From contig VYDB01000137.1 of assembly GCA_009843635.1 (NCBI GenBank), positions 1 through 36,161 of the forward strand: a stretch of 36,161 bases of DNA. The letters are read 5' to 3'. This DNA comes from Gammaproteobacteria bacterium. GTDB lineage: Bacteria > Pseudomonadota > Gammaproteobacteria > Pseudomonadales > Azotimanducaceae. The position numbers were made by a program, and so were the translations under genes. Below are positions 8,926 through 32,558 of this stretch, piece after piece (within the stretch, counting starts at the first letter, position 1; each line of letters starts with the position of its first letter). The notes under the pieces are model-generated. The model saw nothing but the letters and a program-made list of their open reading frames with translations, was not told where the DNA came from and ran no database searches.

Positions 8926-9000
8926 GATTTTCTCCGGTTTCCTGCGACGGCTTGATTCGGCTTAGCACCCAGTCCTTGGGGCGCTTGGCACAGCTTCCCG

Positions 9001-9633: not shown

Positions 9634-9666
9634 GCTTTCCTCTTAAGCGTTCCTTGCCGCTTGCGT

Positions 9667-9724
9667 CAGCCGCGCCTGCCTTGGCGGCATCAGCCACGCC
9701 TGCCCTGGCGGCACTAGCCGCGCC
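9667..9724 (-). repeat. 24-bp tandem repeat behind the rpsK stop codon
   Basis: Two 24-bp units, 9667-9690 and 9691-9714, differ at three positions; a third partial unit runs into the 3' end of rpsK at 9715-9724. Read on the minus strand in the rpsK frame, each full unit is Cys-Arg-Gln-Gly-Arg-Arg-Gly-stop. This echoes the true rpsK C-terminus (Cys-Arg...Arg-Arg-Gly-stop). It looks like tandem duplication of the end of the gene, each copy carrying its own stop codon. Confidence 0.8.
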
Positions 9725-10088: not shown

Positions 10089-10106
10089 GTCGCTGCCTGC
10101 TTTAAG

Positions 10107-10463: not shown

Positions 10464-10509
10464 GATGTTCCTTCCATTGCGTCTTGGTAACCTCGGTTTG
10501 GCTTCGGCC

Positions 10510-10626
10510 TCAGCCTTGCCTTTGCTTGTGCCGCGGTTCGGCGCTGCAAATCACGCGCACCACGCCCTTGCGCCGCACGATCTTGCAGTTGCGGCAGATT
10601 TTCTTCACTGATGCCCGAACTTTCAT
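10510..10626 (-). CDS. rpmJ: 50S ribosomal protein L36
   Basis: 38 residues starting [15 protein letters not shown]. It is the zinc-binding form: Cys11, Cys14, Cys27 and His33 make the CCCH ribbon. It is a late-assembling large-subunit protein. It lies between secY and rpsM, the gammaproteobacterial position. The ATG follows GGAAG, and the ORF ends 46 nt before rpsM. It is easily missed because it is so short. Confidence 0.96.
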
Positions 10627-10653
10627 TTTCACGCTTCCTTGGTCACGGGGAGG

Positions 10654-11976
10654 CTAACGCCGGCGGCCGTAGCCCTTAAGATTCGATTTCTCCATGAGCT
10701 TGGCGTATTGGCTCGACATCAGGTGCGCCTGCACTTGGGACATGAAATCCATCGCCACCACCACGACGATCAGCAGGGCGGTGCCGCCGAGCTGAAACGT
10801 GACGTTGGAGGCCACCACCATGAACTCCGGCAGCAAGCAGACCAGTGTAACGTACAGGGAGCCGAACACGGTGAGGCGGGTGACCACGTCATCGATGTAG
10901 CGCGCCGTCTGCTGGCCCGGACGGATGCCGGGCACATAGGCCCCTTGGCGCTTGAGGTTGTCCGCCATGTCCTTCGGGTCGAACTGAATTGCCGTGTAGA
11001 AAAAGCTGAAGAAGATGATGCCGCCGGCAAACATCAGAATGTATAGCGGCTGCCCCGGCGAAAGCACCAGGGCCACCTGCTGCAGCCAGCCCAGCCCTGG
11101 CCCTTGGCCGAACCATTGGGCCACGGAGGCGGGCGCGAGCAACAGGCTGGAAGCGAAGATGGCGGGTATGACGCCGGCCATGTTGATCTTCAAAGGCAAA
11201 TGGCTGGCCTGGCCTTGGAAGACACGCCGGCCTTGCTGGCGCTTGGCGTAGTTGACAGTGATGCGCCGCTGGCCGCGTTCGATGAAGACCACGAAACCGA
11301 CCACCGCAATGGCGAGCAGGGCGATGGCCAGCAGGGCGATGATGTTGATGTCGCCTTGGCGGGCCGCTTCGAAGGATTGCCCGATGGCACCCGGAAAACC
11401 GGAAACAATGCCCGCAAAGATGATCAGCGAGATGCCGTTGCCGACCCCCCGTTCCGTGATCTGCTCCCCGAGCCACATCATGAACAGCGCCCCGGTCACC
11501 AAGGTGACGGTGGCCACGAAGTAAAAGGCAAAGCCGGTTGAGAACGCCAGCCCCTGGTTGGCCAGCGTGACCGTCAGGGACAGGCCCTGCACCAAGGCGA
11601 TCAGCAGCGTGCCGTAGCGGGTGTACTGGGTGATTTTGCGCCGCCCGGACTCCCCTTCCTTGCGCAGTTGCTGCAGGCTGGGATACATCATGCTCATCAG
11701 GTTCATGATGATGCTGGAGGTGATGTAGGGCACCACGTTCAGGGCCAGGATGCTCATGCGCTCCAAGGCGCCGCCGGAAAACATGTTGAACAGCTCAAGG
11801 ATGCCGCCCTGATTTTGCTCGAACAGCGCCCGCAGCCGGTCCGGGTTGATGCCGGGCAGTGGAATGTGGGTGCCGATGCGATAGACCAGCAGCGCAAACA
11901 GGACGAACAGCAGCCGGTTGCGGAGCTCAGTCAGCCCCGCCTGCGTACCGCCCAGTTGTCCTGGATTAATCGCCAT
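10654..11976 (-). CDS. secY: Protein translocase channel subunit SecY
   Basis: 440 residues with ten hydrophobic segments, as expected for the inner-membrane channel of the Sec system. It begins [22 protein letters not shown], has the plug/TM2 region ([22 protein letters not shown]) and the cytoplasmic loop with [16 protein letters not shown] that contacts SecA and ribosomes. It works with SecE and SecG. AAGGA precedes the ATG. Unlike E. coli, where rplO and secY nearly touch, 138 nt separate them here. Confidence 0.98.
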
Positions 11977-12114
11977 GATCCTTCTCTAGCTTCAGTTTTC
12001 CTGATCGCGGGGCAAGGTTGCCAAATCGGTCAACTCTTGCGCCCGGCGACCGCCTTCTCGCTAATCTTGAGCATCGCCTCGTTTGTCGAACACCCCGCCC
12101 GCCAAGGGACGTGC
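11977..12114 (-). other. Long rplO-secY intergenic gap
   Basis: 138 nt between the rplO stop and the secY start, the longest gap inside the cluster. I see no recognisable gene, no clear promoter and no U-tracted hairpin. A 14-codon ORF (MLKISEKAVAGRKS) is present but has no ribosome site and is not credible as a gene. Confidence 0.5.
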
Positions 12115-12555
12115 TCAGGACTCGACCTTGCCTCCTGCCGCTTCGATGGCCGCCGCCGCGCCTCGGGTGACGTGAATGTCCTTGCCGCGCACGGTGAGGG
12201 GGCGCTCGATTCGCCCGGAGAGCATGATGCGCGCCCGCTTCATGTCGCGACGCACGAGGTTGGCCGCCTTAAGCTGCGCCAAGTCCACCACATCGCCCTC
12301 GATGCGGGCCAATTCACCCAGCCGAACCTCGGCGGTGGACGCACCGATCCGAGAGCGGAAGCCGAACTTGGGCACCCGCATTTGCAAGGGCAGCTGCCCG
12401 CCTTCAAAGCCGGGTGGCACACCGCCTCCGGAGCGCGCCTTTTGCCCCTTCTGGCCGCGGCCCGAGGTCTTGCCATGCCCGGAGCCGCGGCCCCGTCCGA
12501 CCCGCCGCTTGGCGCGCTTACTGCCCGGCGCCGGATGCAAATCATTGATGCGCAT
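12115..12555 (-). CDS. rplO: 50S ribosomal protein L15
   Basis: 146 residues (144 in E. coli). The N-terminal extension [22 protein letters not shown], followed by Gly/Lys/Arg-rich [22 protein letters not shown], threads into 23S rRNA; the C-terminal globular domain ends in [15 protein letters not shown]. It is a late-assembly protein of the large subunit. Five nt separate it from rpmD, so translation is probably coupled. Confidence 0.97.
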
Positions 12556-12560
12556 GCCGC

Positions 12561-12782
12561 TTAAGCCTCCCCAACGACTTGGACCATGTAGCTGACCCGG
12601 TTGATCATGCCGCGCACCGCCGGGGTGTCCTCCACCTCCACGGTGTGACCGATGCGGCGCAGCCCCAAGCCCGCCACGCAGGCCTTGTGCCGCTTGAGCC
12701 GGCCGGCGGCGCTCTTGGTCTGGGTCACCCGGATCATCCGCTTGCCACTCGTCGTCGCTGTTTTGGCGTTGTCTTCAGCCAT
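12561..12782 (-). CDS. rpmD: 50S ribosomal protein L30
   Basis: 73 residues. The core from residue 16 ([18 protein letters not shown], then [23 protein letters not shown]) is a standard 58-residue L30. The preceding 15 residues ([15 protein letters not shown]) are extra. I keep the long start because AGGG lies eight bases upstream of it, whereas the inner ATG at 12737 has no good ribosome site; the short form remains possible. It follows rpsE, the normal spc-operon order. Confidence 0.93.
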
Positions 12783-12818
12783 GGTTGCTGCCCTGTTTTC
12801 CGTCCTGGCGGCCCTGCG

Positions 12819-13322
12819 CTAAGCGCTGATTTCCTCGACGCTCTTGCCGCGCTTTTCGGCAATGACGGCCGGCGAGCGCATGTTCGTCAGGGCGTTGAAG
12901 GTCGCCCGCACCACGTTGTCCGGATTGGTCGAGCCGTAGCACTTGGCCAGCACGTTATGCACCCCCGCCGCTTCCAGGACGGCGCGCATGGCGCCGCCGG
13001 CAATGATGCCGGTGCCTTCGGAGGCGGGTTGCATATAGACCTTCGATGCGCCGTGGCGTTCCGTGATCGCGTACCAGATGGTGGAGCCGTTGAGTTCGAT
13101 GTCCACCATGTTGCGGCGGGCGACTTCCATGGCCTTTTGAATCGCCACCGGCACTTCCCGGGCCTTGCCGCGCCCGAACCCGACCTTGCCCTTGCCGTCG
13201 CCCACCACGGTCAGGGCAGTGAAGCCGAACAGCCGGCCGCCCTTGACGGCTTTCGCCACCCGGTTCACCCGGACCGTCTTCTCCAGCAGCCCCTCTTCGC
13301 GAATTTCCTCTGTGTATGCCAC
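12819..13322 (-). CDS. rpsE: 30S ribosomal protein S5
   Basis: 167 residues, the usual length. I start at GTG 13322 ([17 protein letters not shown]), which has GGAG seven bases upstream, inside the end of rplR. An open extension to 13361 overlaps rplR and has no S5 homology. The N-terminal dsRNA-binding-like domain has [23 protein letters not shown], the loop where ram and spectinomycin-resistance changes occur. The second domain has [16 protein letters not shown]. The protein shapes mRNA entry and decoding accuracy. Confidence 0.95.
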
Positions 13323-13323
13323 G

Positions 13324-13674
13324 TTAGAACTCCAAACCCCCTTCTCGGGCCGCTTCGGCAAGCGCCTTCACGCGACCGTGGAACTTGTACCCGGAGCGGT
13401 CGAAGGCGACCTGGCTGACGCCCGCTGCCTGGGCTCGTTCGGCAACCAGCGCCCCCACCTTGGCGGCCGCCTCCACATTGCCGGTAGCCCCCTCGCGCAG
13501 GCTCTTGTCGAGGGTGGAGGCTTGCGCCAGGACGTTGGCGCCATCGGCTGACAGCACCTGGGCGTAGATGTGGCGCGGCGAGCGGTTGACGGTCAACCGG
13601 CTGACGCCGAGCTCGCGCATCTTCATGCGCCCTCGGCGCGCCCGGCGCAGCCTTGCCTGTTTCTTGCTGATCAT
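13324..13674 (-). CDS. rplR: 50S ribosomal protein L18
   Basis: 116 residues (117 in E. coli): basic N-terminus ([19 protein letters not shown]), then [16 protein letters not shown] and the C-terminal [20 protein letters not shown]. It binds 5S rRNA with L5 and L25 in the central protuberance. Its TAA stop is one base from the rpsE GTG start, and the rpsE ribosome site is inside its coding end, so the two are translationally coupled. Confidence 0.97.
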
Positions 13675-13697
13675 GCTTGCTCTCCGCGTACCTGCCG

Positions 13698-14231
13698 CTA
13701 CTTCTTCTTGGCTTCCTTGCGCCGCACCTGCTCGCCTAGGTAGCGCACACCCTTGCCCTTGTAGGGCTCCGGCGGCCGGAAGCTGCGAATCTCCGCGCTC
13801 ACTTGGCCGACGAGTTGCTTGTCAGCGCCTGAAACGACGATTTCCGTTTGGCTGGGCGTCGCCGCGCTGACCCCTTTCGGCAACTGATACTCCACCGGGT
13901 GGGAGAAGCCGAGCTGCAAGGTCAGCGTCTCTCCCTTGACGGCCGCGCGGTAGCCCACGCCTTGCAATTGCAGCCGCTTCTCAAAGCCGACGCTGACGCC
14001 CTGCACCATGTTGTTGACCAAGGAGCGGGTGGTGCCCGCCAGCGCCTTGCTGCTCTTGGATTTGGTCCGGGCCCTGAAGCGCAGCACGCCGTCTTCCTGG
14101 GCGACCTCAACGGACGGGTGGATCGCCGTCTCCAAGGTGCCCTTGGCGCCGGACACCCGAATGCTGGCGCCGCTGACGGCCGCCTCCACGCCTTCCGGCA
14201 CGGCAACTGGATTGTCGGCTATTCGGGACAT
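13698..14231 (-). CDS. rplF: 50S ribosomal protein L6
   Basis: 177 residues, the normal size, with two repeated alpha/beta domains. It begins [17 protein letters not shown] and ends with the conserved [26 protein letters not shown], the 23S rRNA-binding face near the sarcin-ricin loop and factor-binding site. It lies between rpsH (7-nt gap) and rplR in the spc operon. Confidence 0.98.
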
Positions 14232-14238
14232 GCTAAAA

Positions 14239-14631
14239 CTAGAACACCGTACAAAGCACTTCGCCGCCGACGCCGAGCCGGCGCGCGTGGCGGTCGGTCA
14301 TCACGCCTTGGCTGGTGCTGACGATGGCGACGCCCAACCCGCCGCGCACCTTGGGCAATTCCGCCTTGCCCTTGTAGATTCGCAGCCCCGGCCGGCTGAC
14401 CCGGTGAATCTCCGCGATGACCGGCTCCCCGGCGTGATACTTGAGTTGCACGGTCAGTTCCCGCTTGCCTTCGCCGCTGATGCTGAAACCTTCGATATAG
14501 CCTTCCTGCTCCAGCACCTCGCAGATGGCCGCCTTGGCTTTGGAGTGCGGCATGGCCACTTCCGGGTGGCCGACGCTCTGGGCGTTGCGCACCCGGGTGA
14601 GGAGGTCGGCGATGGGATCCTGCATGGTCAT
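14239..14631 (-). CDS. rpsH: 30S ribosomal protein S8
   Basis: 130 residues as in E. coli. N-terminal [14 protein letters not shown] and the C-terminal [20 protein letters not shown] contacting helix 21 of 16S rRNA are intact. It is a primary binder of the central domain. In E. coli it also represses the spc operon by binding near the rplE start; I did not verify a matching mRNA structure here. Confidence 0.98.
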
Positions 14632-14640
14632 GGACCGCTC

Positions 14641-14946
14641 CTACCAACTCGCCTTGACCAAGCCCGGCACATCGCCGCGCATTGCCGCCTCGCGCAGCTT
14701 GTTGCGGCCAAGGCCAAACTTTCGATACACGCCATGGGGCCGGCCGGTCAGGCCGCAACGGCGTTGCCGGCGCACCGGCGAGGCGTCGCGCGGCAGCTTC
14801 TGAAGCTTGAGCTGCGCCTCCCAATGCTCGTCATCGGAAAGGTTGCGATTGTTGATGATGGCCTTGAGCTCGGCGCGCTTGGCCTGGTAGCGGGCGGCCA
14901 CCTTGGCGCGCTTCTTTTCCCGCTCAATCATCGATGCCTTTGCCAT
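14641..14946 (-). CDS. rpsN: 30S ribosomal protein S14, zinc-free type
   Basis: 101 residues, starting [20 protein letters not shown] and ending [27 protein letters not shown]. Only one cysteine is found ([14 protein letters not shown]), so this is the long zinc-independent form typical of Proteobacteria and not the 61-residue CXXC form. It sits in the head of the small subunit. It is between rplE (50-nt gap) and rpsH (9-nt gap). Confidence 0.98.
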
Positions 14947-14996
14947 GTTCTTGGTCCGTTGTGCTGATGCTTAGTTGATGGAATCGCAGCCTAGCT

Positions 14997-15545
14997 TTAA
15001 GCCGCTGGTTGCCGGAACGGGAAATTGAACTGCCGCAGCAGGGCCAAGGCCTCCGCGTCGGTGGTGGCGGTGGTGGTCACGGTGATGTCAAGACCGCGAA
15101 TCTTGTCGATCTTGTCGTAGTCGATTTCAGCGAACACGATTTGCTCCACGATGCCCATGGAGAAGTTGCCGCGTCCGTCGAACGACTTGGGGTTCAACCC
15201 GCGAAAGTCGCGGATGCGCGGAATGGCCACGCCAACCAGCCGTTCCAGGAACTCGTACATGCGCCTGCGACGGAGCGTCACCTTGCAACCAACCGGGTAG
15301 CCTTCCCGGATCTTGAAACCCGCCTCGGACTTGCGCGCCTTGGTGATGATGGGCTTTTGGCCGGAAATGGCCGTCAAGTCGGCAACGGCCGCCTCCATGA
15401 TCTTGCGGTCGCCCACCGCCTCGCCGACCCCCATGTTCAGGGTCACCTTCTCAAGCTGCGGCACCTGCATGATGCTGGCCAGCCCCAATTCCTCCTTGAG
15501 GGCGGGGCGGATCCGATCCCGGTAGTCTTCCAGAAAGCCACTCAT
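14997..15545 (-). CDS. rplE: 50S ribosomal protein L5
   Basis: 182 residues from ATG 15545 ([20 protein letters not shown]), matching the family length of about 179. The open frame extends to 15656 but that part overlaps rplX and has no L5 similarity. Conserved [18 protein letters not shown] and GKVTLR-type and [16 protein letters not shown] motifs are present. It binds 5S rRNA and contacts the P-site tRNA and S13. One nucleotide separates it from the rplX stop. Confidence 0.97.
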
Positions 15546-15546
15546 T

Positions 15547-15873
15547 CTAGCTATCCAAAACTTCGCCCGTTGATTTGAAGTAGCGGACCTTCTCTTTGTT
15601 CCCGCCGTCGCTCTCGATGCGAAAGCCCACTCGGTCGGCACGTTGCTCGGCGTCATTCCAGATGGCGACGTTGGAAGCGTCGATCGGGCCTTCGCGTTCG
15701 ACGATGCCGCCTTGCTGGCCTCGATTCGGGTCGCCTCGCTGGTGCTTCTTCAACAGATTGACGCCCGCCACGATGAGACGGCCATCGCGGCGCACTTCGA
15801 GCACTTCGCCGCGCCGTCCGCGGTCGCGTCCGGCAATCACGATGACTTCGTCGTCTTTTCTTATCTTGTTCAT
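15547..15873 (-). CDS. rplX: 50S ribosomal protein L24
   Basis: 108 residues (104 in E. coli), with the KOW motif at the N-terminus ([25 protein letters not shown]). L24 is one of the two assembly initiators of the 50S subunit, binding the 5' end of 23S rRNA. The 76-nt leader between rplN and this gene contains a 24-bp tandem repeat, and each unit carries a GGAG, so the ribosome site context is unusual. Confidence 0.97.
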
Positions 15874-15886
15874 CTGTTTGCTTCTG

Positions 15887-15950
15887 AGCCGCAGGCTTTC
15901 TATCTACTCCAGCCGCAGGCGCTCTATCTACTCCAGCCGCAGGCGCTGCC
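15887..15950 (-). repeat. 24-bp tandem repeat between rplN and rplX
   Basis: Units at 15887-15910 and 15911-15934 are 24 bp and differ at only two positions; a third, partial unit (15935-15950) abuts the rplN stop codon. On the minus strand each unit carries GGAGTAGATAGA and CCTGCGGCT. The period is a multiple of three, as in the separate repeat behind rpsK, although the sequence is unrelated. Confidence 0.85.
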
Positions 15951-16318
15951 TACAGCACCTCCGGGGCCAGCGAGACGATGCGCATGAAGTGCTCGGTGCG
16001 CAGCTCCCGGGTAACGGGGCCGAAGATGCGCGTTCCCACCGGCTGATTTTGTTGATTGAGCAGTACTGCGGCGTTCTCGTCGAAGCGGATCAGCGAGCCG
16101 TCCGGCCGCCGAACGCCTTTGCGGGTGCGTACCACCACCGCGTTCATGACCTGCCCCTTGCGCACCCGGCCCCGCGGTATGGCCTCCTTGACCGCCACCT
16201 TGATGATGTCGCCGATGCCCGCGTAGCGGCGATGGGAGCCGCCAAGCACCTTGATGCACTGCACCCGCCTTGCGCCGCTGTTGTCGGCTATGGCCAACAT
16301 GGTTTGTGCTTGAATCAT
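15950..16318 (-). CDS. rplN: 50S ribosomal protein L14
   Basis: 122 residues (123 in E. coli): [47 protein letters not shown] and the C-terminal [24 protein letters not shown]. It lies on the 30S-facing side, contacts L19 and takes part in an intersubunit bridge; it is also the docking site of the silencing factor RsfS. First gene of the classical spc operon; the gap from rpsQ is only 22 nt, so the S10 and spc operons are probably one transcript here. Confidence 0.98.
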
Positions 16319-16340
16319 GGGCGTTCAACCTGTTAGTGCT

Positions 16341-16610
16341 CTATGCCACTGCGGCGCGCTGATCGACGGACTTCAGCCGCCACGACTTGGTCTTGGAAAC
16401 GGGACGGCACTCCTCGACGGTGACCGTGTCGCCGACGTGGCCCTCGTTGCGCTCGTCGTGGACATGCAGCCGGGTCGAGCGACGGATGATCTTGCTGTAC
16501 ACCGGATGCTGGACCTTGCGTTCCACCAGCACCGTGAGGGTCTTGTCCATGCGGTCGCTGGTGACGACGCCGGTTACCGTACGCCGGCCTGCCTTGATCG
16601 GCTTAGTCAT
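16341..16610 (-). CDS. rpsQ: 30S ribosomal protein S17
   Basis: 89 residues (84 in E. coli), an OB-fold protein: [38 protein letters not shown] and [15 protein letters not shown]. It is a primary binder of the 5' domain of 16S rRNA. Its start overlaps the rpmC end by eight nucleotides, so translation is coupled. Last gene of the classical S10 operon. Confidence 0.98.
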
Positions 16611-16824
16611 GCACTTTCTCCCCGGACGCCTCGTCCGCGTGCGCCTTTTCCCGCATGATGGTCTTCACCCGGGCGATGTCGCGCCGGGTCTCCTGCACCA
16701 GATGGGTTTGACCCAACTGGCCACTGGCCCGCTGCATGCGCAGGTTGAAGTGCTCCTTGCGCAGCCGCAGCAGTTCGCTCTTGAGCTCATCCGCAGCCAT
16801 TTCCCTTAAGTCCGTCGCGTTCAT
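16603..16824 (-). CDS. rpmC: 50S ribosomal protein L29
   Basis: 73 residues from ATG 16824 ([19 protein letters not shown]), with AAGG just upstream; 12 further in-frame residues are possible up to 16860 but are not conserved. The helical hairpin core [32 protein letters not shown] is standard. The C-terminus is about ten residues longer than in E. coli. It lies at the tunnel exit next to L23 and helps bind SRP and trigger factor. Confidence 0.96.
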
Positions 16825-16867
16825 CGCCTTAACTGACCTTGATCCGTCCGCCCGCTTCAATGCCGCG

Positions 16868-17284
16868 CTAGGCGGCTACAGTCCGTTTTGCGAAGGCCGT
16901 GGAGAACGGCAACTTGGCGCTGGCCAATTCAAAGGCTCGCCGCGCCACCTCCTCCGGCACGCCTTCAATCTCGTACAGGATGCGACCCGGCTGCACTTGG
17001 GCAACCCAGTACTCGACGCTGCCCTTGCCCTTGCCCTGGCGCACCTCAAGCGGCTTCTTGGTGATCGGCTTGTCCGGGAAGGCGCGAATCCAGATCTTGG
17101 CGCCGCGGCGCACATGGCGCGTCATGGCCCGCCGCGCGGCTTCGATTTGGCGTGCAGTCAAGCGCCCTCGGCTGGTCGCCTTGAGGCCGTATTCGCCAAA
17201 GCTCACGGCGCTGCCGCGGTGCGACAGGCCGCGGTTGCGGCCCTTGTGCTGCTTTCTGAATTTCGTTCGTTTCGGTTGTAGCAT
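16868..17284 (-). CDS. rplP: 50S ribosomal protein L16
   Basis: 138 residues (136 in E. coli): [32 protein letters not shown]-like helix and [14 protein letters not shown]. The arginine in IRAFPDKP corresponds to the residue hydroxylated in E. coli L16. It organises the A-site tRNA region near the peptidyl transferase centre. The gap to rpsC is 77 nt, larger than most in this cluster; I see nothing special in it. Confidence 0.98.
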
Positions 17285-17361
17285 CGCTGTTCAACTCTCT
17301 TGCCATCCCATTGCACTGCCGCCCTTAAGCTTCCCGTCTCCAAGGGCCGCGGTGCGGATCT

Positions 17362-18021
17362 CTAGCCGGCCGCCGCCTCCGCTTCTTCCGGACTCAGGAT
17401 TTCACCCTTGAACACCCACACCTTGATGCCCAGCACTCCGTATGTGGTCTGCGCCTCCCAAGTGGCATAGTCGATATCGGCCCGCAGGGTGTGCAGGGGC
17501 ACCCGCCCTTCGTGGTACACCTCCGAGCGGGCGATCTCCGCACCGCCCAAGCGGCCGGCCACCCGCACCTTGATGCCCTGGGCGCCCAAGCGCATGGCGT
17601 TTTGGATGACCCGGCGCATGGCGCGCCGAAACTGCACCCGCCGTTCCAACTGCTGCGCCACGTTCTGCGCCACCAGCAAAGCGTCGATCTCTGGCTTGCG
17701 AATCTCCTCGATGATGACATGCACCGACTGCAGCCCCATCAGGTTGGTGAGATCCACCCGCAGGCGCTCAACGTCCTCGCCCTTTTTGCCGATGACGATG
17801 CCGGGGCGGGCGGTGCGGATGGTGATCCGCGCGGTCTGCGCCGAGCGCTTGATTTCGATGCCGCTGACCGACGCCTGGGCCAGGCGCTTGCGCAGGTACT
17901 CGCGCACCTCCAGATCCTTGAGCAGGTATTCCGAATACTGCTGCTTGTCTGCGTACCAGATGGACTTATGCGACTTGACCACGCCAAGGCGGATTCCGGT
18001 TGGATGTACTTTCTGGCCCAT
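17362..18021 (-). CDS. rpsC: 30S ribosomal protein S3
   Basis: 219 residues (233 in E. coli; the C-terminal tail is a little shorter). It begins [20 protein letters not shown]. The KH domain has [12 protein letters not shown] with its GxxG loop, and the C-terminal domain has [14 protein letters not shown]. It lines the mRNA entry tunnel with S4 and S5 and contributes to mRNA helicase activity. Four nt separate it from rplV. Confidence 0.98.
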
Positions 18022-18025
18022 CTTG

Positions 18026-18358
18026 CTACTCGTCCGACAGGGTCACGGTAATGTGGCTGGTGCGCTTGAAGATGCGATCCGCCCGGCCCTTGGCGCGGGG
18101 CTTGATGCGCTTCAGCGTGGTGCCTTCGTTGACTTGAATCTCCGCAACCCAGAGTTCATCCACATCCGCGCCCTCGTTGTTTTCCGCGTTGGCGATCGCC
18201 GACTCCACCACCTTGCGCACCAGCACCGCCGCCTTGGCCGGGCTGAAGCTCAGGAAGCCGAGCGCCTGATCCAAGGGCCGCCCGCGCACTTGGTCGGCGA
18301 CCAAGCGGGCCTTCTGCGGCGATATGGCAAGCCGTCTGGCGGTGGCGGAAACCATCAT
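18026..18358 (-). CDS. rplV: 50S ribosomal protein L22
   Basis: 110 residues, as in E. coli. It starts with two tandem ATG codons (18358 and 18355), the first overlapping the rpsS stop as ATGA. Conserved [19 protein letters not shown] and the hairpin tip around [20 protein letters not shown], which lines the nascent-chain tunnel where macrolide resistance and SecM stalling act, are present. Confidence 0.97.
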
Positions 18359-18633
18359 GACCGGCGCGCCTTGCGATCCGCAGCATGGCCCCGGTAGGTT
18401 CGCGTCGGGGCAAATTCGCCGAGCTTGTGGCCGACCATCTCTTCGCTAACGAAGATCGGCACGTGCTGGCGCCCGTTGTGCACGGCGATGGTCAGCCCCA
18501 CCATGTCCGGCAGGATCATGGAACGGCGCGACCAAGTCTTGATGGGCCGCTTGCTGCCGCTCTGCACGGCCTGATCCACCTTCTTCATCAGGTGAAGATC
18601 GACGAAGGGACCCTTTCGCACCGATCTCGGCAT
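18355..18633 (-). CDS. rpsS: 30S ribosomal protein S19
   Basis: 92 residues, the same as E. coli, from ATG 18633 ([19 protein letters not shown]) with a strong GAGGAGG ribosome site seven bases upstream. The frame is open further to 18768 but that part lies inside rplB and is not S19. Conserved [17 protein letters not shown] and [11 protein letters not shown] are present. It binds with S13 in the head of the subunit. It overlaps rplV by four bases. Confidence 0.97.
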
Positions 18634-18637
18634 GGCT

Positions 18638-19465
18638 TTACCTCCTCGTCCTGCGGCGCACGATGAGCCCGTCGGTGCGCTTGTTGCTGCGCGTTTTGTG
18701 GCCCTTGGTGGGTACGCCCCAAGGCGAGACGGGATGTCGGCCGCCCGAGGACTTGCCCTCGCCGCCACCGTGGGGATGATCCACCGGGTTCATGGCCACG
18801 CCGCGCACGGTGGGGCGAACCCCACGCCAGCGCTTGGCCCCAGCCTTGCCGAGGGAACGCAGGTTGTGCTCGCTGTTGCCCACTTCACCGACCGTGGCGC
18901 GGCATTCGGCGAGCACCCGGCGCATCTCTCCCGAGCGCAGGCGCAGGGTGGCGTAGTTGCCTTCCCGGGCCACGAGCTGCGCGGAGGTGCCGGCGCTGCG
19001 GGCGAGTTGCGCCCCCTTGCCGGGCTTGAGTTCAATGCAGTGCACCACGCTGCCGACCGGAATGTTGCGCAAGGCCATCGCGTTGCCGGGGCGAATGGGA
19101 GCGCTTGAGCCGCTCATGACCGGATCATTGGCCCGCAACCCCTTGGGCGCGATGATGTAGCGCCGCTCACCATCCGCATATTTGAGCAAAGCGAGGTTCG
19201 CGGTGCGGTTGGGGTCGTATTCAAGGCGCTCGACGCGGGCGGGCACGCCATCCTTGTTGCGCTTGAAATCGATGATTCGATAGTGGCGCTTGTGCCCGCC
19301 ACCCCGGTGCCTGGTAGTGATGCGACCGTGGTTGTTGCGCCCCCCGGATTTGCTCAATCCCTTGAGCAAGGGTTTGTGCGGCGCGCCCTTGTGCAGATCC
19401 GGATTGACCACCGTGACGACGAAGCGCCGGCCCGGGGATGTTGGTTTTGCCTTGACGACTGCCAC
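18638..19465 (-). CDS. rplB: 50S ribosomal protein L2
   Basis: 275 residues (273 in E. coli): N-terminal OB domain ([23 protein letters not shown]), SH3-like domain, and the C-terminal [16 protein letters not shown], which includes the histidine implicated near the peptidyl transferase centre. It is required for subunit association. It is four nt from rplW and four nt from the rpsS start, part of a tightly packed segment. Confidence 0.98.
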
Positions 19466-19469
19466 GGCC

Positions 19470-19766
19470 CTACTCCGTTACCATAGTGTCGAGTTCCTGG
19501 CCGGCAGCGATGCGCACGTAGGCCTTTTTCCAGTTCTTCTTGCGGGCGGTGCCGTACCGATTGCGCTTGACCTTGCCGCGCACGTTGAGCGTGGTCACGT
19601 TGAGCACCTCGACGCCGAATAGCTGCTCCACCGCCTCCTTGACTTCCGCCTTGGTAGCGTCCTTGGCCACCTTGAATGCGTATTGGTTGCTCGAATCGCC
19701 AAGGTTGGTGACCTTTTCCGAAATGTGCGGTTCGTCGAGCACGATGTAAATGCGTTCTTCGTTCAC
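19470..19766 (-). CDS. rplW: 50S ribosomal protein L23
   Basis: 98 residues (100 in E. coli). It carries [22 protein letters not shown], an early glutamate region used for trigger factor and SRP docking, and the C-terminal [23 protein letters not shown]. It lies at the tunnel exit. Its start overlaps the rplD end by four bases, so it is translationally coupled to L4. Confidence 0.97.
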
Positions 19767-20374
19767 GCCAGCGCCTCCTCAAGCTTCTTCAGCGCGCCGA
19801 CGGTCATCAGCACCTGATCGAAGCTCACCAAGCTCAACGGATCGATGGCGGCAACGTCGCGAACGGCCACCTCGCGCAGGTTGCGGGCAGCGAGTTCGAG
19901 GTTGCGGTCCACGCCGTCGGCGACGAGGAGCAGCTTTCCTTCAGGCTTTGGGTCGAGGGAGGCGAGTTTGTCGAGGAGGGCGCGGGTCTTGGGGGCGTCA
20001 ATGGAGAAGGCGTCGAGGGCAATGAGGCGGTTTTGGCGGATCAGCTCGGACAGAATGCAGCGCACCGCGCCCTGATACATCTTGCGGTTGACCTTTTGCG
20101 AATGATCCTGCGGCTTGGCCGCGAAGGTGACGCCACCGCCGCGCCAGATGGGGCTACGGATGCTGCCCGCCCGGGCTCGCCCCGTGCCTTTCTGGCGCCA
20201 AGGCTTGCGACCGCCGCCGCGCCGTTCCGATCGGGACTTGTGGGCTCTCGAACCCTGCCGGCCTGCCGCTTGGTAGGCGTTGACCACCTGATGCACCAAG
20301 GCCTCGTTGAATTCGCGGCCAAAGGCTGCTTCGGACAGCTCCACGCTGCCGCCGGCTTGCAGCGCGAGCTTCAT
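19763..20374 (-). CDS. rplD: 50S ribosomal protein L4
   Basis: 203 residues (201 in E. coli). The extended tunnel loop is [20 protein letters not shown] and [14 protein letters not shown]; the C-terminal globular part ends with [20 protein letters not shown]4 lines the exit tunnel. In E. coli it also shuts down the S10 operon by stimulating termination in the rpsJ leader. The terminator-like hairpin found before rpsJ here makes the same control plausible, but this is inference. It overlaps rplC by four bases. Confidence 0.98.
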
Positions 20375-21015
20375 GACGCAGCCCTCTTGATGGCCGGGCG
20401 AATCTGCACATCGCCCCCCGCAGGCCCCGGCACCGAGCCCTTCACCAGCAGAAGATTGCGTTCCTTATCGACACGCACAACCTCGAGGTTTTGGGTGGTC
20501 ATGCGGGTGTTGCCGAGTTGCCCGGCCATCTTCTTGCCCTTGAACACCCGCCCCGGCGTTTGGCACTGGCCGATGGAGCCGGGCGCCCGGTGGGAGATGG
20601 AGTTGCCGTGGCTGGCGTCCTGGCCGCTGAAGTTCCATCGCTTGATGGTGCCGGCGAAGCCCTTGCCCTTGGAGGTGCCGCGCACATCCACCCGTTGCCC
20701 AGCTTCAAAAACCTCAACGCCAAACTCAGCGCCGGGAACCAAGGCTTCGTCAACGCGGTCCACGCGGAATTCCCACAGCCCCCGGCCGAGCCCGGCACCG
20801 GCCTTGGCAAAGTGGCCGGCCATGGGGCGGGTGACGCGGTTGCGCCGGCCGGCGCCGGCGGTGACCTGAACAGCGGCGTAGCCGTCGCTTTCCGGCGTTT
20901 TGACTTGGATGACTCGATTGGGCTCGACTTCAATGACCGTGACGGGCACGGACGCGCCCTCGTCGGTGAACACCCGAGTCATGCCGCATTTTTTGCCAAT
21001 CAAGCCAATGGCCAT
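20371..21015 (-). CDS. rplC: 50S ribosomal protein L3
   Basis: 214 residues (209 in E. coli): [20 protein letters not shown] at the N-terminus, and the long extension toward the peptidyl transferase centre with [21 protein letters not shown]. The glutamine in GQCQTPG region matches the site methylated by PrmB in E. coli. L3 is an assembly initiator of the 50S subunit. The 72-nt gap from rpsJ contains a strong terminator-like hairpin; AGGA lies ahead of the start. Confidence 0.98.
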
Positions 21016-27733: not shown

Positions 27734-28522
27734 TCACCCATATGACTCCGCGATGGCCGGAAATGCGCCGCTTCGGGTGTCTTCGGCGAAGCGGTCGACG
27801 GCGCTGCGAATCAGCCCGCGCCCATCGGCGTAGTGGCGCAAGAAGCGCGGCTTGAAGTCTGGGTTCATGCCCAGCATGTCCTGCAGCACCAGCACTTGGC
27901 CATCGGTGTCGGGCCCGGCGCCGATGCCGATGGTGGGGATGGACAGTTCCTCGGTGATGCGCCGCGCCAGTTGCCGGGGCACGCATTCGAGCACCAGGGC
28001 GAAGCAGCCAGCCGCCTCCAGCTTGCGGGCGGAGTCGAGTATCCGTCCGGCTTGGCCTTCGTTGCGGCCCTGCACCTTGTGCCCGCCAAAGGCTTGCACC
28101 GATTGAGGCGTCAAGCCTAGGTGCCCCATCACCGGCACGCCGGATTCGACGATATGAGCCGTCAACTCCGCCTGGCCCGCCTCGCCCTCCACCTTGATGG
28201 CGTTGACGCCGGTCTGCATGAGCGCCTGCACCGAATCCATGGCAAAGCCCCGGCCCTTGCGCATGGACAGGAAGGGCATGTCGCCGACGATGAACTTGTC
28301 CGGCGCGCCCCGCCGCACCGCAGCGGCGTGCAGCGCCATCATTTCCACCGTAGCCTGCACGGTGCTATCGAAGCCATGCACGACCATGGCGAGACTGTCG
28401 CCCACCAGCAGGCAATCGACATCGGTTCGATTCAGGACCTCGGCCGACCAAAAGTCGTAGCAGGTGACCATGGAAATGGGCTCTCGAGCGGCCTTGCGCC
28501 GCGCAAAGTCAAGGGTGTTCAA
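27734..28522 (-). CDS. panB: 3-methyl-2-oxobutanoate hydroxymethyltransferase
   Basis: 262 residues (264 in E. coli) from TTG 28522 (NTLDFARRKAAREPISMVTCYD), with GGGAG eight bases upstream. Metal and substrate motifs are intact: LVGDSLAMVVHGFDST, HTAAVRRGAP-like AAAVRRGAPDKFIVGDMPFL, VKVEGE-type IKVEGE and GHLGLTPQSVQAFGGHKVQGR. It makes ketopantoate from 2-oxoisovalerate with methylenetetrahydrofolate. The TTG start overlaps the stop of a 39-codon upstream ORF as TTGA, which suggests coupled translation. The frame is open to 28591, but that part has no similarity to PanB. Confidence 0.93.
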   Translation of the reverse strand: MNTLDFARRKAAREPISMVTCYDFWSAEVLNRTDVDCLLVGDSLAMVVHGFDSTVQATVEMMALHAAAVRRGAPDKFIVGDMPFLSMRKGRGFAMDSVQALMQTGVNAIKVEGEAGQAELTAHIVESGVPVMGHLGLTPQSVQAFGGHKVQGRNEGQAGRILDSARKLEAAGCFALVLECVPRQLARRITEELSIPTIGIGAGPDTDGQVLVLQDMLGMNPDFKPRFLRHYADGRGLIRSAVDRFAEDTRSGAFPAIAESYG

Positions 28523-28638
28523 GGCGTTCTCCCGGGTGTGTGGAGCATGAGGCCGGGACCGGGAACCGGAGGCGGTGCAGAAGGCGCGCATTGACGCGCA
28601 GAGGCGGTAAGCGAGTGGCTGCTGCCATCGAATTGCAT
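28519..28638 (-). CDS. Short ORF upstream of panB, possible leader peptide
   Basis: 39 codons, MQFDGSSHSLTASARQ followed by a proline-rich APPPVPGPG stretch. It has a good ribosome site (GGAGGACAGG ending five bases before the ATG), better than that of panB itself. Its TGA stop (28521-28519) overlaps the panB TTG start in TTGA. This layout is typical of translational coupling or a leader peptide. I recognise no family; it may be untranslated, or the true panB start may lie elsewhere. Confidence 0.45.
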   Translation of the reverse strand: MQFDGSSHSLTASARQCAPSAPPPVPGPGLMLHTPGRTP

Positions 28639-28780: not shown

Positions 28781-28843
28781 GTCTAAACTGCCCGCCCTTG
28801 CGGCCAAGCTGGGCCGCATCGATTGCAGACGGAGAAGACCGAC

Positions 28844-29839
28844 ATGAGGCGAGACGGATTGCACAGTGCCCTGACCGACTTCCAGCGGCTTGGAGAGGTG
28901 CGCGAACTCTCGCCGCACGATACGCACCGGGTTAGCGAACAACCTAAGTCGGTTAGCCGTTACTACGACGTGGTCACGATGTTCTACGAGATCGCCTGGG
29001 GCCAGTCGTTCCACTTCTCCCCACGCCAGCCGCGGGAGAGCTTGCGCGCTTCCCAGCAGCGACACGAAGAGGAAATCGGCCAGCTCCTCGGGCTTGGGCC
29101 CGGGATGGAGGTTGGGGACATCGGCTGCGGCGTGGGCGGGCCGCTCATCCGCATCGCGCAGGCCACCGGCGCGAACATCACGGGAGTCAACCTCAATGAC
29201 TACCAAATCCGCCGCGGCCAGAACCGGCTGCAACGCGCAGGTCTGAGCGGCTCATGTGGATTTCTCCATGCGGACTTCATGGATGTGCCGCTGCCGGACT
29301 GCGCTTTCGATGCCCTTTACTCATTTGAGGCGGTGTGTCATGCCCCCAACCGGCGACTGGCGTTCCGCGAATTCCACCGATTGCTGAAGCCCGGCGCCGA
29401 AGCCGCCATCGTGGATTGGTGCCTCACGGATGCCTTCGATGTCAGCAACAGCCGGCACAACGAAATTCGGGAGCGGATCGAGAGAGCCAATGCAACGCCG
29501 GAGTTGGCGATCGCGGGAGAATACGTCGATGCCGTGCAAAGCGCCGGCTTCGAGGTGATCGAGGCCGTTGACCAACAAGCCAGGCATGGGGACCCCGCAT
29601 CACCTTGGTACATGGCGCTTCAGGGGCGAGACATCTCCCTGTCCTCGTTCGCGCGCATTCCGGCGGGACGTGCCTTCACCGCAACGCTTACTCGCGCTCT
29701 TGAACGAATCCGCATAGCCCCGGCTGGCACGTCCGAGGCGGCCCGGATTCTCAACGTCGCAGCCGACGCCCTTGTGGAAGGCGGCGAACTGGGCATCTTT
29801 ACGCCCAGCTTCCTGATCCACGCACGCAAGCCGACCTAG
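28844..29839 (+). CDS. Erg6-type sterol C-24 methyltransferase (SMT)
   Basis: 331 residues with every hallmark of sterol methyltransferases in order: region I FYEIAWGQSFHFS (47-59; Erg6 has YEYGWGSSFHFS), the SAM motif GDIGCGVGGP (91-100), NLNDYQI (117-122 area), FEAVCHAP (161-168; Erg6 IEATCHAP), VDWCLTD (190-196) and a C-terminal SMT_C domain with ALVEGGELGIFTPSF and HARKP. It should transfer methyl from SAM to a delta-24 sterol side chain. ATG 28844 has GGAGAAG six bases upstream. It stands alone, divergent from panB and convergent with a toxin gene; no sterol-synthesis gene is in view. A non-sterol prenyl lipid substrate remains possible. Confidence 0.87.
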   Translation: MRRDGLHSALTDFQRLGEVRELSPHDTHRVSEQPKSVSRYYDVVTMFYEIAWGQSFHFSPRQPRESLRASQQRHEEEIGQLLGLGPGMEVGDIGCGVGGPLIRIAQATGANITGVNLNDYQIRRGQNRLQRAGLSGSCGFLHADFMDVPLPDCAFDALYSFEAVCHAPNRRLAFREFHRLLKPGAEAAIVDWCLTDAFDVSNSRHNEIRERIERANATPELAIAGEYVDAVQSAGFEVIEAVDQQARHGDPASPWYMALQGRDISLSSFARIPAGRAFTATLTRALERIRIAPAGTSEAARILNVAADALVEGGELGIFTPSFLIHARKPT

Positions 29840-29948
29840 GGGGCCGCATCTCGACCAGATCACCGCCTGCGCAGGCCACCATTGTCTTCGAGCCCCCAAC
29901 ATGGGCCGTTGACGGCACGTCAGGTTTCATCTCCTCGTAGGGGATTCG

Positions 29949-30599
29949 CTATTGCGTAATGCGAATTCCGCTGCGCTCACCTGCGTTCCTTACGTCGTTT
30001 AGGAAGGACGCGTCGTAGCCGTCTCGTACACCCGCGACTGCGAAATCGTCCTCGGCAACCCGACCGCCGAACATCAGCAGCGCGTCGTCAGGGTCGCAGC
30101 GGTTCGACGTCCAAATCAAGCCGTCCACGTAGTCAAACTGTTCGTGGATCGCTTTGGCCCACATCGCGGTGCGATGATATTGGGTCGGCAGGCTGTCGAT
30201 CAGGCTGTGCCGTTGGATGCCCCACTTCATCAGGTCCGGCGCGCGCAGACTGGCGAATTGCAAGGTGCGGCGGACCAGCAATGCGCTGAGCTTGGTTTCC
30301 TCGATGACAAGCTGCGGCACGGTCTTCCGACGGGCATTCGGCGGAATGTCGTGGAAAATCGTCTCATGGATCGTCGCGACCACAGTGCTGGCTGCGTAGA
30401 GCGACGGAATGCAGCGGTTGCGCGAATCCCGAATGGGGGCGAAGCGTGTCTGGCCACCTTGGCAGGGATTGAAGCCATTTCCTTCCAAGTTGCGCCGGTG
30501 AACACGGTACAGCACGCTGCCCGACGTCAGTTCGACCAGATTCGGCTCCGCTAAAACGGGCGGTGGCGAGGGAACCGGTGCAACCGCCGCCTCATCCAC
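29949..30599 (-). CDS. RES-domain toxin of a type II toxin-antitoxin system
   Basis: 216 residues. The RES domain spans about 25-190, with the conserved arginine in LYRVHR (Arg32), glutamate in VATIHETIF (Glu79) and serine in DGLIWTSNR (Ser165). Studied RES toxins either degrade NAD+ or ADP-ribosylate a target such as phosphoribosyl pyrophosphate synthetase; which applies is not visible. I chose GTG 30599, which has GGAG seven bases upstream and overlaps the antitoxin stop by eight bases; an in-frame ATG at 30677 would add 26 basic residues. It is translationally coupled to the upstream antitoxin. Confidence 0.82.
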   Translation of the reverse strand: MDEAAVAPVPSPPPVLAEPNLVELTSGSVLYRVHRRNLEGNGFNPCQGGQTRFAPIRDSRNRCIPSLYAASTVVATIHETIFHDIPPNARRKTVPQLVIEETKLSALLVRRTLQFASLRAPDLMKWGIQRHSLIDSLPTQYHRTAMWAKAIHEQFDYVDGLIWTSNRCDPDDALLMFGGRVAEDDFAVAGVRDGYDASFLNDVRNAGERSGIRITQ

Positions 30600-31251
30600 T
30601 CGCCGGCTCCGCCAGCCGGCGAGCTGCTTCGACGACCTGCTGGCCCTCGTCCAAGCGTTGCTGCGGTTCGTCGCCATCGAGCCACCCGTTTCCGGAGGCG
30701 AACCACAGCGCCTTCTGCCATCCCGTCATGGCCTCTGGAAGCACGGTGAGTATGTCCTTGATGATCGGCCGAGGCGCTCCGTCCTCGAATTGAAATGCGG
30801 GGTACAGGTCGCGCCTGCCCACCCGGACGGCGAACAGCTTGTGCTCGGCCTTCCACCGCGAGGCCGGCTCGCTGGTGTTCCGCGACTGCAAACCGGAACC
30901 TGCATGAACGTCAGCCGCCGTCAGCATCGGCGTTTCCTCCAAGTACTCGCGCCGCAACTCCAGATTATCGACCGCCAACTGCGCCTGAACGCCGGAACCC
31001 GCGGACACCAGCCATGCCAAAACACGGTCTAGATCCTGAACGCTGCCCTCCTTAAAGCGCCTCCCGTAGAGTCGGCTCAGCCGATCCATCACACCGCCTA
31101 CTGACACGCCGGTGGCATGCACCACGACCCATTCGTCATCCTCCCCGCGCTCGACTTCAGCGTCCAAACGGTCCCGCACCTGCAGTGGCAGCTTTTCGAC
31201 ATCGTCAGTCTGGAGCGGTGCCCAAGAGATCGGCTTCGGTTGATTGGCCAT
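30592..31251 (-). CDS. Antitoxin partner of the RES toxin
   Basis: 219 residues from ATG 31251. The C-terminal third (AEHKLFAVRVGRRDLYPAFQFEDG, IIKDILTVLP and GWQKALWFASGNGWLDG) matches the toxin-binding region commonly encoded just before RES toxins (the Xre/MbcA/ParS-type C-terminal domain). The N-terminal half is not an obvious helix-turn-helix; it has charged helices and a LRREYLEETPMLTAADVH segment. It should neutralise the toxin and probably represses the pair. The start has no strong ribosome site, so it is less certain than the frame. Confidence 0.72.
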   Translation of the reverse strand: MANQPKPISWAPLQTDDVEKLPLQVRDRLDAEVERGEDDEWVVVHATGVSVGGVMDRLSRLYGRRFKEGSVQDLDRVLAWLVSAGSGVQAQLAVDNLELRREYLEETPMLTAADVHAGSGLQSRNTSEPASRWKAEHKLFAVRVGRRDLYPAFQFEDGAPRPIIKDILTVLPEAMTGWQKALWFASGNGWLDGDEPQQRLDEGQQVVEAARRLAEPASG

Positions 31252-31502
31252 CAAAACTACACCATGAGATTCATGATTTGAACTGAGGTTAACAATTCTC
31301 ACTACAGGGCTCAACTTGAGCCTCACATTACTGTTGAAACGTCCTCTCTGATCAGAAAGGGTGGTCTGAGAGCGACCCCACTCCAAAAAAAGTCTAGTAC
31401 AATCAAAATGGCGGCGGCATTTGAGAAGATAGCCCGCCCACAGGGTACGCGAGCAGGAAGCTGGCCGCGCCGCAGTTGTCTCGTTTGGATTAAGGGGGAT
31501 CG
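31252..31502. other. Intergenic region between the antitoxin and the luciferase-like oxidoreductase
   Basis: 251 nt, clearly more AT-rich than the surroundings, divergent promoter space for the toxin-antitoxin pair (minus) and the oxidoreductase (plus). It contains the palindrome at 31308-31322 and a TACAAT hexamer near 31394 that could be a plus-strand -10 but has no recognisable -35. AAGGGGG precedes the oxidoreductase ATG. No gene is seen in it. Confidence 0.5.
31308..31322. promoter_or_regulatory. Perfect palindrome upstream of the toxin-antitoxin pair
   Basis: GGCTCAA-C-TTGAGCC, a perfect 7-bp inverted repeat with one central base, lies 57 nt before the antitoxin ATG in a locally AT-rich stretch. 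Antitoxins of this class usually repress their own promoter by binding such repeats. It is a candidate operator; no clear -35/-10 pair was found. Confidence 0.45.
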
Positions 31503-32558
31503 ATGAAACTCGGACTTATGCTCGGCTATTCCGGGGCTGGCCTTTCGTTGCCCATCAAGAAAGTGCAACTTGCCGAACGGCTTGGCTACGATTCGGTGTG
31601 GACCGCCGAAGCCTATGGCTCCGACGCCATCACGCCGCTGGCCTTCATCGCCGCGCGCACCGAACGCATCCGCCTTGGCACGGCGGTCATCCAGCTCGCC
31701 GGGCGCACCCCCGCCAACGCGGCCATGGCCATGGCCACCCTGGACCAACTGGCGGGCGGCAACCGGGTGATCTGCGGCATCGGCGTATCCGGTCCGCAAA
31801 TCGTGGAAGGCTGGTACGGGCAGCCTTGGGGCCGGCCCTACTATCGCCTTAAGGACTACGTCACCATCATGAAGAAAATCTGGGCCCGTGAAGAGCCGGT
31901 CACCCACGATGGCCAGGAGATCAGCCTGCCCTACGAAGGCGAGGGGGCGATGGGCGTCGGCAAGCCGCTGAAGTCTATCCTGCACATGAATCCCGACATT
32001 CCCATTTGGCTCGGCACCGGCATGGCCTCCACCGTGCGCCTAACCGCCGAGATAGCCGACGGCTGGCTGCCTTTGGGCTACGTGCCGGAGTCCGCCCACC
32101 TCTATCAAGACTGGATCGACGAAGGGCTGGCCAAGGCGGGCAAGAGCCGGGCGGACTTTGAAGCCCAGGCGGGCACCCAGGTGATGATTACCGAGGATTC
32201 CAGCGCCGCGGTGCAGGCGGCACTCGGCCGGCTGAAACCCAACGTCGCCCTGTACGTCGGCGGCATGGGCCATCGCCACAAGAACTTCCACAAGGAAATG
32301 ATGGTGCGGCGCGGCTTTGGCGACGCGGCCGAGAGGATTCAGGAACTCTTCCTGGCCAAACGCAAGGATGAGGCAGCGGCGGCGGTGCCGGACGAGTTCG
32401 TTGACCAGGGCGCGCTGGTAGGCCCCAAGGCCCGGATACGCCAGCGCTTCCGGGCTTGGGAGGACGCAGGCCTCACCGGGCTGACCATTGGCGGGGACGA
32501 GGCGGCCATCACCTTTGCCGCCGAGTGCGCCCGCCTCAACACGGAACTCTCCGGCTAA
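31503..32558 (+). CDS. LLM-class oxidoreductase, probable F420-dependent (Rv3520c-like)
   Basis: 351 residues of the luciferase-like TIM barrel. MKLGLMLGYSGAGLSLPI, ERLGYDSVWTAEAYGSDA, RLGTAVIQLAGRTPANAAM, CGIGVSGPQIVEGWYG and WGRPYYRLKDYVTIMKKI match the Rv3520c-type family, which in mycobacteria uses F420 and is encoded among steroid-degradation genes. The strong AGGGGG ribosome site supports the ATG. It is 86 nt upstream of the acyl-CoA synthetase on the same strand, probably one transcript. Cofactor and substrate are inferred from family only; whether this organism makes F420 cannot be told from the window. Confidence 0.85.
   Translation: MKLGLMLGYSGAGLSLPIKKVQLAERLGYDSVWTAEAYGSDAITPLAFIAARTERIRLGTAVIQLAGRTPANAAMAMATLDQLAGGNRVICGIGVSGPQIVEGWYGQPWGRPYYRLKDYVTIMKKIWAREEPVTHDGQEISLPYEGEGAMGVGKPLKSILHMNPDIPIWLGTGMASTVRLTAEIADGWLPLGYVPESAHLYQDWIDEGLAKAGKSRADFEAQAGTQVMITEDSSAAVQAALGRLKPNVALYVGGMGHRHKNFHKEMMVRRGFGDAAERIQELFLAKRKDEAAAAVPDEFVDQGALVGPKARIRQRFRAWEDAGLTGLTIGGDEAAITFAAECARLNTELSG

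Follow-up and report, generated by a model that had tools for sequence, protein, structure and literature searches.

The window, the whole 36,161-nucleotide stretch of DNA that was analyzed, carries on its plus strand a gene whose product has the domain layout of a sterol C-24 methyltransferase (SMT). The gene and the features of its protein are:

28844–29839, plus strand: SMT-type gene of the SMT-A clade, 331 residues, with ATG at 28844 and stop at 29839
28997–29020, plus strand: Region I, WGQSFHFS, residues 52–59, aligned with other SMTs
29117–29404, plus strand: Methyltransf_11, the SAM-binding methyltransferase domain, residues 92–187 (Pfam E = 2.5e-20)
29123–29143, plus strand: GCGVGGP, residues 94–100, inside Methyltransf_11
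29324–29347, plus strand: FEAVCHAP, residues 161–168, inside Methyltransf_11
29660–29833, plus strand: Sterol_MT_C (PF08498), residues 273–330 (Pfam E = 9.6e-21; 74.1 bits, the cut-off being 21.7), containing IFTPSF (residues 318–323) and HARKP (residues 326–330)

An in-frame TTG at 28823 is an alternative start that would add seven residues. The earlier note on this DNA had described a full-length SMT bearing these five motifs; we found the reading frame in its place with every motif in the order described, and Pfam sets Methyltransf_11 ahead of Sterol_MT_C. In a motif table, conserved regions I–IV, whose roles we take to be those assumed for SMTs generally, are followed in order by the C-terminal FTP...RKP, with substitutions at three places. 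Compared with yeast Erg6 and plant SMT1/SMT2 (33–40% identical and with all regions in order), the window protein has AWG instead of GWG, EAVCHAP instead of EATCHAP, and AN instead of GD (GDG/GDA). Region I is presumably the proposed sterol-binding region. The AlphaFold model (mean pLDDT 89.8, pTM 0.88) has a predicted fold similar to those of the class I methyltransferases AtmM, RebM, MitM, and SpnF, a likeness that does not discriminate the substrate, and no eukaryotic SMT was among the PDB matches of the window protein (phmmer, E 1e-3).

We then scored the protein against an SMT profile made from 13 SMTs of other clades (10 myxobacterial and three eukaryotic sequences) with no SMT-A row; the myxobacterial rows include both rows of the Sandaracinus NAT131 contig, which we take to be the SMT pair published as functional. 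The window protein reached 381 bits, against 114–119 bits for segments of RebM and MitM (partial sequences), while 35 SMT-A rows scored 359–397 bits and 12 SMT-C rows 287–381 bits, 287 being the lowest SMT row tested. Among 632 called frames, the profile listed no matches other than SMTs. Being partial, the RebM and MitM segments make a reasonable though imperfect control. These scores and the 74-bit match to Sterol_MT_C bear out the earlier view that the protein is closer to Erg6/SMT than to generic SAM methyltransferases. A generic or cyclopropane-type enzyme (for mycolic acids or other small molecules) was rejected, as CMAS reaches 60 bits, below the 74 of Sterol_MT_C; the NCBIfam models shown for the window protein all fall far under their cut-offs. 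By family membership the window gene is a genuine sterol C-24 methyltransferase, with catalysis predicted.

Sterol_MT_C was detected in one of 398 genomes sampled from the phylum (the genome of the window itself), in none of 14 control genomes, and in 13 of 100 genomes and 4 of 37 genera of its own family. At least 572 relatives of the window SMT were confirmed in genome contigs; the best 80 were kept, with titles among them from Pseudomonadota, Chloroflexota, Acidobacteriota, Myxococcota, Actinomycetota, and others. SMTs had been described in the earlier note as known from only a few bacterial groups, and the distribution is wider than that, given at least 572 relatives and the many phyla among the best 80. 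A 2023 study reports that bacterial SMTs from sponge metagenomes alkylated sterols when expressed (PMC10070321), and a 2022 study reports ERG6/SMT1 enriched in MAGs from Ircinia sponges (PMC9531527).

We constructed a first tree of 107 rows and a more careful one of 40 rows, from which L086 and four duplicate rows were left out. Both consist of SMT rows with no non-SMT outgroup and are anchored by the Sandaracinus NAT131 rows, together with three eukaryotic rows in the 107-row tree. In the 40-row tree, SMT-A forms a clade of 31 rows separate from other SMTs (support 100/100), with row titles from Gammaproteobacteria, Chloroflexota, Acidobacteriota, and Actinomycetota. The window SMT and that of locus L052 group with gammaproteobacterial rows inside SMT-A (9 rows, 99/96); the eukaryotic rows of the 107-row tree, yeast and plant SMTs, lie outside the clade. 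The SMT-A genes of the congeners G076 and G033 branch away from the window and L052. Forcing these four rows together was rejected (p-AU 2.9e-5, the tested group having been chosen after the first tree was seen), and the window SMT is accordingly not a vertical orthologue of its congeners' SMT-A.

Five of the 31 distinct SMT-A loci (L034, at the same place as L073, L035, L055, L058, and L062) lie beside squalene synthase and/or a fused epoxidase-cyclase, which ties the SMT-A clade to sterols; the other 26 have neither neighbor within the available flank, and many flanks are short. At L055 the matched part of the SMT is interrupted by in-frame stops. Four loci of the clade, L034, L035, L058, and L062, encode proteins 61–65% identical to the window protein and carry a fused epoxidase-cyclase and CYP51, for both of which the window genome has no match.

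The whole window is contig C102 of a MAG of 4.49 Mb (96.46% complete, 152 contigs), and it includes a bacterial chromosome marker:

7909–21015, minus strand: rpoA with the ribosomal-protein operon

The operon genes at ~7.9–21.0 kb are rpoA, secY, and those for S4, S11, S13, L15, L18, L6, S14, L5, and L14, with further genes for L16, S3, L22, L2, L4, and L3. Eukaryotes are the best-known home of SMTs, and the gene might be thought a eukaryotic contaminant sequence; its place on the same 36-kb contig as rpoA and the ribosomal operon effectively rules this out, in agreement with the argument that the earlier note had drawn from this linkage. Furthermore, a second MAG has the same gene context, the nearest rows are all bacterial (among the best 80 of at least 572 relatives), and the SMT is intronless with a GC content like that of its surroundings, leaving contamination a negligible possibility.

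The second MAG is Gammaproteobacteria RHO2_bin_33, home of L052, which at 97% identity is the closest locus with a name among the best 80 of at least 572. The SMT row of the congener G076 is identical to the SMT of Candidatus Azophilus lithoversatilis (NCBI: Candidatus Azotimanducaceae, Pseudomonadales); a literature search on Azophilus as a sponge symbiont returned no paper. Bins here have the prefixes RHO, COS, and IRC, which match the initials of Rhopaloeides, Coscinoderma, and Ircinia in PMC8163846; we infer that the bins stem from that study and that the window is from a sponge, so that the bacterium appears to live in sponges.

The SMT lies in a variable segment of 2.7 kb, bordered as follows:

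27734–28591, minus strand: panB (Pfam Pantoate_transf), the conserved left flank by synteny
28782–31490, strand not assigned: segment comprising the SMT, a RES gene and its partner, extra relative to G033 and present in RHO2_bin_33
29949–30677, minus strand: RES-domain protein (Pfam RES, E = 4.7e-12), probably the toxin of a toxin-antitoxin pair of the RES type
30592–31386, minus strand: RES partner of 264 residues with no Pfam match, a putative antitoxin by position only
31503–32558, plus strand: LLM-class F420-type oxidoreductase, the right flank, which G033 and G076 have at this site too

The toxin role of the RES protein is presumed from its family. In G033, positions 12361 and 12232 of contig C18 correspond to window positions 28781 and 31491, so that the flanking homologues stand ~129 bp apart, and in RHO2_bin_33 the segment is the same at 99% identity. 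G076 has ~2.6 kb of other DNA at this site, and in G092 and G057 the panB side alone aligned. No integrase or transposase was found by Pfam among the three called genes of the segment. Absence of the segment from G033, together with the placement in the tree, suggests that the SMT was acquired horizontally.

Between the window MAG and RHO2_bin_33, the SMT differs by 7 synonymous and 11 nonsynonymous changes (dN/dS 0.51), as against 66 and 17 in six pooled neighbors, two of which overlap by 86 bases (Fisher p = 0.001 vs the SMT), and a neutral ratio for the SMT between the two MAGs is not rejected (p = 0.13). This excess of amino-acid change, with the absence of the segment from G033, could mean that the SMT arrived recently, does little for the bacterium, and evolves under relaxed selection. 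That explanation is unlikely: the frame and motifs are intact in both MAGs, dN/dS to more distant relatives is 0.16 (L053) and 0.11 (L054), values which indicate that the clade is under constraint, and a second SMT of the genome, from another clade and on contig C31, has a dN/dS of 0.13. The recent change in the SMT of the window lineage could be relaxed or adaptive.

The absence of a squalene or oxidosqualene cyclase from the window, already remarked in the earlier note, extends to the whole genome (96.46% complete), in which we found no match for PF13243 (SQHop_cyclase_C), PF13249 (SQHop_cyclase_N), or PF08491 (SE). The search of the remaining genome for squalene epoxidase and oxidosqualene cyclase, which the note had proposed, thus found neither. 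No CYP51 orthologue was detected in the genome either (best match 37 bits, compared with 858 in G092, 939 in G033, and 1037 in G076, the query's own genome). Of the de novo sterol set, squalene synthase is present, and epoxidase, cyclase, and CYP51 have no match. The congeners G033, G076, and G092 carry a sterol cluster, at another site in G092, whose genes encode a fused squalene epoxidase-cyclase (1129 residues in G076), CYP51, an ERG24-type reductase, a Rieske protein, and 3-beta-HSD. On the unbroken 84.8-kb contig C13 of the window genome, the flanks of the G033/G076 cluster have between them 1.67 kb of DNA unrelated to it, in which the sterol genes tested gave chance-level matches only. 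Contig C96 of RHO2_bin_33 likewise spans from flank to flank without the cluster, and that MAG gave no hit to PF13243 and lacks a CYP51 orthologue (best match 36 bits). G057, which is one contig, and G092 also lack the cluster at that site, and loss and original absence therefore fit the empty site alike.

These observations bear on whether the genome encodes a conventional de novo sterol pathway, with the SMT acting late in it and the remaining genes lying in unassembled or unbinned parts. Three congeners have the cluster, that of G092 shows that it could lie elsewhere in the window genome, the MAG is 96.46% complete, and squalene synthase is there. A missed cluster was nevertheless rejected, as four queries gave no match (cyclase N and C domains, epoxidase, and CYP51) and the site on the unbroken 84.8-kb contig is empty. 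A second MAG, from a separate bin, also has neither a cyclase C domain match nor a CYP51 orthologue, and chance absence of a whole clustered pathway from both bins is improbable; we consider the de novo explanation quite unlikely.

More widely, 18 genomes could be reached from the 80 SMT loci, and all but two of them, RHO2_bin_33 and the Microthrixaceae genome G112, have a cyclase-family match (16 of 18). Thirteen of the 18 have an SMT-A locus: nine with a cyclase frame of fused size (split over two in G104), two with shorter cyclases only, and two with none. The shorter ones are that of G101, which has the DxDD motif of squalene-hopene cyclases, and that of G109, which is SHC-like by score and frame length. 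Within the family, SQHop_cyclase_N has no match in 7 of the 13 genomes that bear an SMT, among them the single-contig genome G062. The fused squalene epoxidase-oxidosqualene cyclase itself was seen at L029 (9145–12537, 1129 residues), with long frames in L030–L035. It was dismissed as a novelty, since the methods of PMC10070321 already mention fused SMO/OSC homologues.

Several lipid genes are retained in the window genome. The second SMT on C31 is 35% identical to the window SMT and belongs to another clade, SMT-C; the same locus is found in RHO2_bin_33 at 97% identity. Two ERG4/ERG24-family reductases are encoded on C62 and C22, the nearest solved structure to the C62 protein being a delta-14 sterol reductase, and RHO2_bin_33 has one such reductase. 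Squalene synthase is encoded on C107 and in RHO2_bin_33. Its gene row on C107 (L166, 2847–10929) has no cyclase and includes a protein of the MPAB/Lcp type (rubber-oxygenase family), an MMPL transporter, a LolA-like protein, and a 562-residue protein with no Pfam match; the MMPL protein has a Sterol-sensing match of 34 bits. The row is conserved at L173 of G033 and, in part, at L176 of G062. Synteny with contig C379 of RHO2_bin_33 (L169) suggests that window positions 1–1635, the left end of C102, adjoin the end of C107 at L166 11517–12647, which is the end carrying the squalene synthase row.

We compared 12 cyclase-free genomes of the family, of which the five SMT-free ones are hand-picked single-contig genomes of the same genera. 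Squalene synthase occurs in 7/7 with an SMT and 1/5 without (Fisher p = 0.010), and ERG4/24 matches above the cut-off occur in 5/7 and 0/5, respectively (Fisher p = 0.028), both tests ignoring kinship.

These data raise the question of whether the enzyme acts on squalene or on some other terpenoid, linear or polyprenyl, instead of a sterol. The alga Botryococcus has SMT-like triterpene methyltransferases (TMT) that methylate linear squalene. The window genome and RHO2_bin_33 both have squalene synthase with no cyclase match, the synthase stands in a row with an oxygenase of the MPAB/Lcp type, a transporter, and a LolA-like protein, and it follows the SMT across the cyclase-free genomes (p 0.01, kinship ignored). 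Such co-occurrence could, however, reflect habitat and kinship. Moreover, five of 31 SMT-A loci adjoin squalene synthase or a sterol cyclase cluster, ERG4/ERG24-type sterol reductases are present, and G112 has SMT-A with no squalene synthase match, which speaks against a squalene substrate for the clade. On balance, we regard a linear terpenoid substrate as rather unlikely.

We lean, with modest confidence, towards a real sterol C-24 methyltransferase, horizontally acquired, that alkylates sterols scavenged from the host or from other symbionts. The sterol-type reductases and two SMTs, with no detectable cyclase, make the alkylation of acquired sterols the best reading. The established SMT reaction is the SAM-dependent methylation of the side chain of a delta-24 sterol. 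By this scheme, S-adenosylmethionine would be bound in the Rossmann domain of the window protein, and the methyl group would pass to the double bond in the side chain of a delta-24 sterol, desmosterol for example. The bacterium would make no sterols and would alkylate those taken from its sponge host or from sterol-making symbionts, yielding a 24-methyl or 24-ethyl sterol; the two ERG4/ERG24-type reductases would perhaps reduce the acquired sterols, and the gene may have arrived by transfer among sponge symbionts. The earlier note had left a choice between host sterols and other genes lying elsewhere: host uptake is probable, as there is no match for cyclase, epoxidase, or CYP51, and genes elsewhere are disfavored by the searches, by the empty site on an unbroken contig, and by a second MAG with no cyclase match. 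A precedent in PMC10070321 is a Chlamydiae MAG with a working SMT and no other sterol genes.

Several points weigh against the scavenging of sterols. A completeness of 96.46% in 152 contigs leaves room for missing single genes, and the empty site is one location; 26 of 31 SMT-A loci have no sterol-synthesis neighbor within the available, often short flank, and G092 has a sterol cluster with no SMT match. The substitutions at the GWG, EATCHAP, and GD positions, which yeast and plant SMTs have in common, also count against it. The excess amino-acid change in the SMT means that constraint may be weak, and the squalene synthase in the genome puts a squalene-type substrate on hand. Brown et al. (PMC10070321) report that, of the SMT homologues they assayed, 2 of 10 from symbionts and 2 of 14 from the environment were inactive on the two sterols offered.

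The second SMT of the window genome belongs to a recurrent class of locus, SMT-C, seen at L003 (C31, 6359–15151), L041–L045, and L213. An RND transporter at least 73% identical to that of L003 occurs in 6 of 12 such loci (L003 counted), a P450 match in 8 of 12, and a KshA-like Rieske gene in some; in L003 the P450 is fused to a GPP34 domain (Pfam). The class is also found in genomes with no cyclase match. A literature search on bacterial GPP34 with P450 returned only insect and pesticidal-protein titles. Sponge Gammaproteobacteria with no sterol pathway may edit the sterol side chains of hosts or neighbors through SMT-A, carried on the mobile 2.7-kb segment, and SMT-C. A joint reading, which we offer tentatively and think doubtful, is that SMT-A alkylates scavenged delta-24 sterols while the SMT-C locus, with its RND exporter, GPP34-P450 fusion, and sometimes a Rieske oxygenase, makes and exports a methylated, oxidized steroid or terpenoid. 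If so, alkylated steranes could record bacteria that never made the sterol ring.

Sterols alkylated at C-24 are taken as biomarkers of eukaryotes. Should this lineage alkylate sterols that it is unable to make, one could not tell from a cyclase gene, present or absent, whether a bacterium contributes alkylated sterols, and a division of labor between host and symbiont could account for some of the sterol diversity in sponges. A lone SMT with no synthesis would be a useful case for interpreting sterol fossils, and the two MAGs with no cluster, set against the congeners that have it (G033 and G076), provide a testable contrast.

Much of the setting is already published. Brown et al. 2023 (PMC10070321) likewise describe SMTs of uncultured bacteria, often sponge-associated, that were selected because they have both a methyltransferase and a Sterol_MT_C domain; Sandaracinus, sponge-symbiont, and Chlamydiae SMTs are included, the active Chlamydiae case having no other sterol genes; bacterial SMTs, sponge-symbiont SMTs, and an active SMT unaccompanied by other sterol genes are therefore known from that source. 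Identity between the window protein and the matched SMT from the Sandaracinus NAT131 contig is 46%. SMT genes were also found in sponge-associated bacterial genomes among the Ircinia MAGs of PMC9531527, a study that reports clusters of synthesis genes, whereas the window genome has no cluster where its congeners have it. No publication on the SMT of this lineage was found in the bacterial and sponge sterol literature, preprints and most subscription papers being outside the scope of the search.

Other SMT loci have features of their own. G112, the Microthrixaceae (Actinomycetota) genome of L079, has SMT-A and four ERG4/ERG24-family matches with no match to PF13243 or squalene synthase; this gene set fits the use of imported sterols and makes G112 another candidate sterol scavenger. 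At L059, L061, L063, L064, and L066, from Chloroflexi and Holophagales MAGs, a Rieske oxygenase ~30% identical to the KshA-like protein follows close after SMT-A, perhaps as a traveling pair. At L053 (10001–12156), SMT-A is followed by the start of a second SMT-A, inside which the contig ends, the two being 73% and 81% identical to the window protein. Finally, L092, from an Alphaproteobacteria MAG, has three SMT matches in a row adjoining a sterol cluster.
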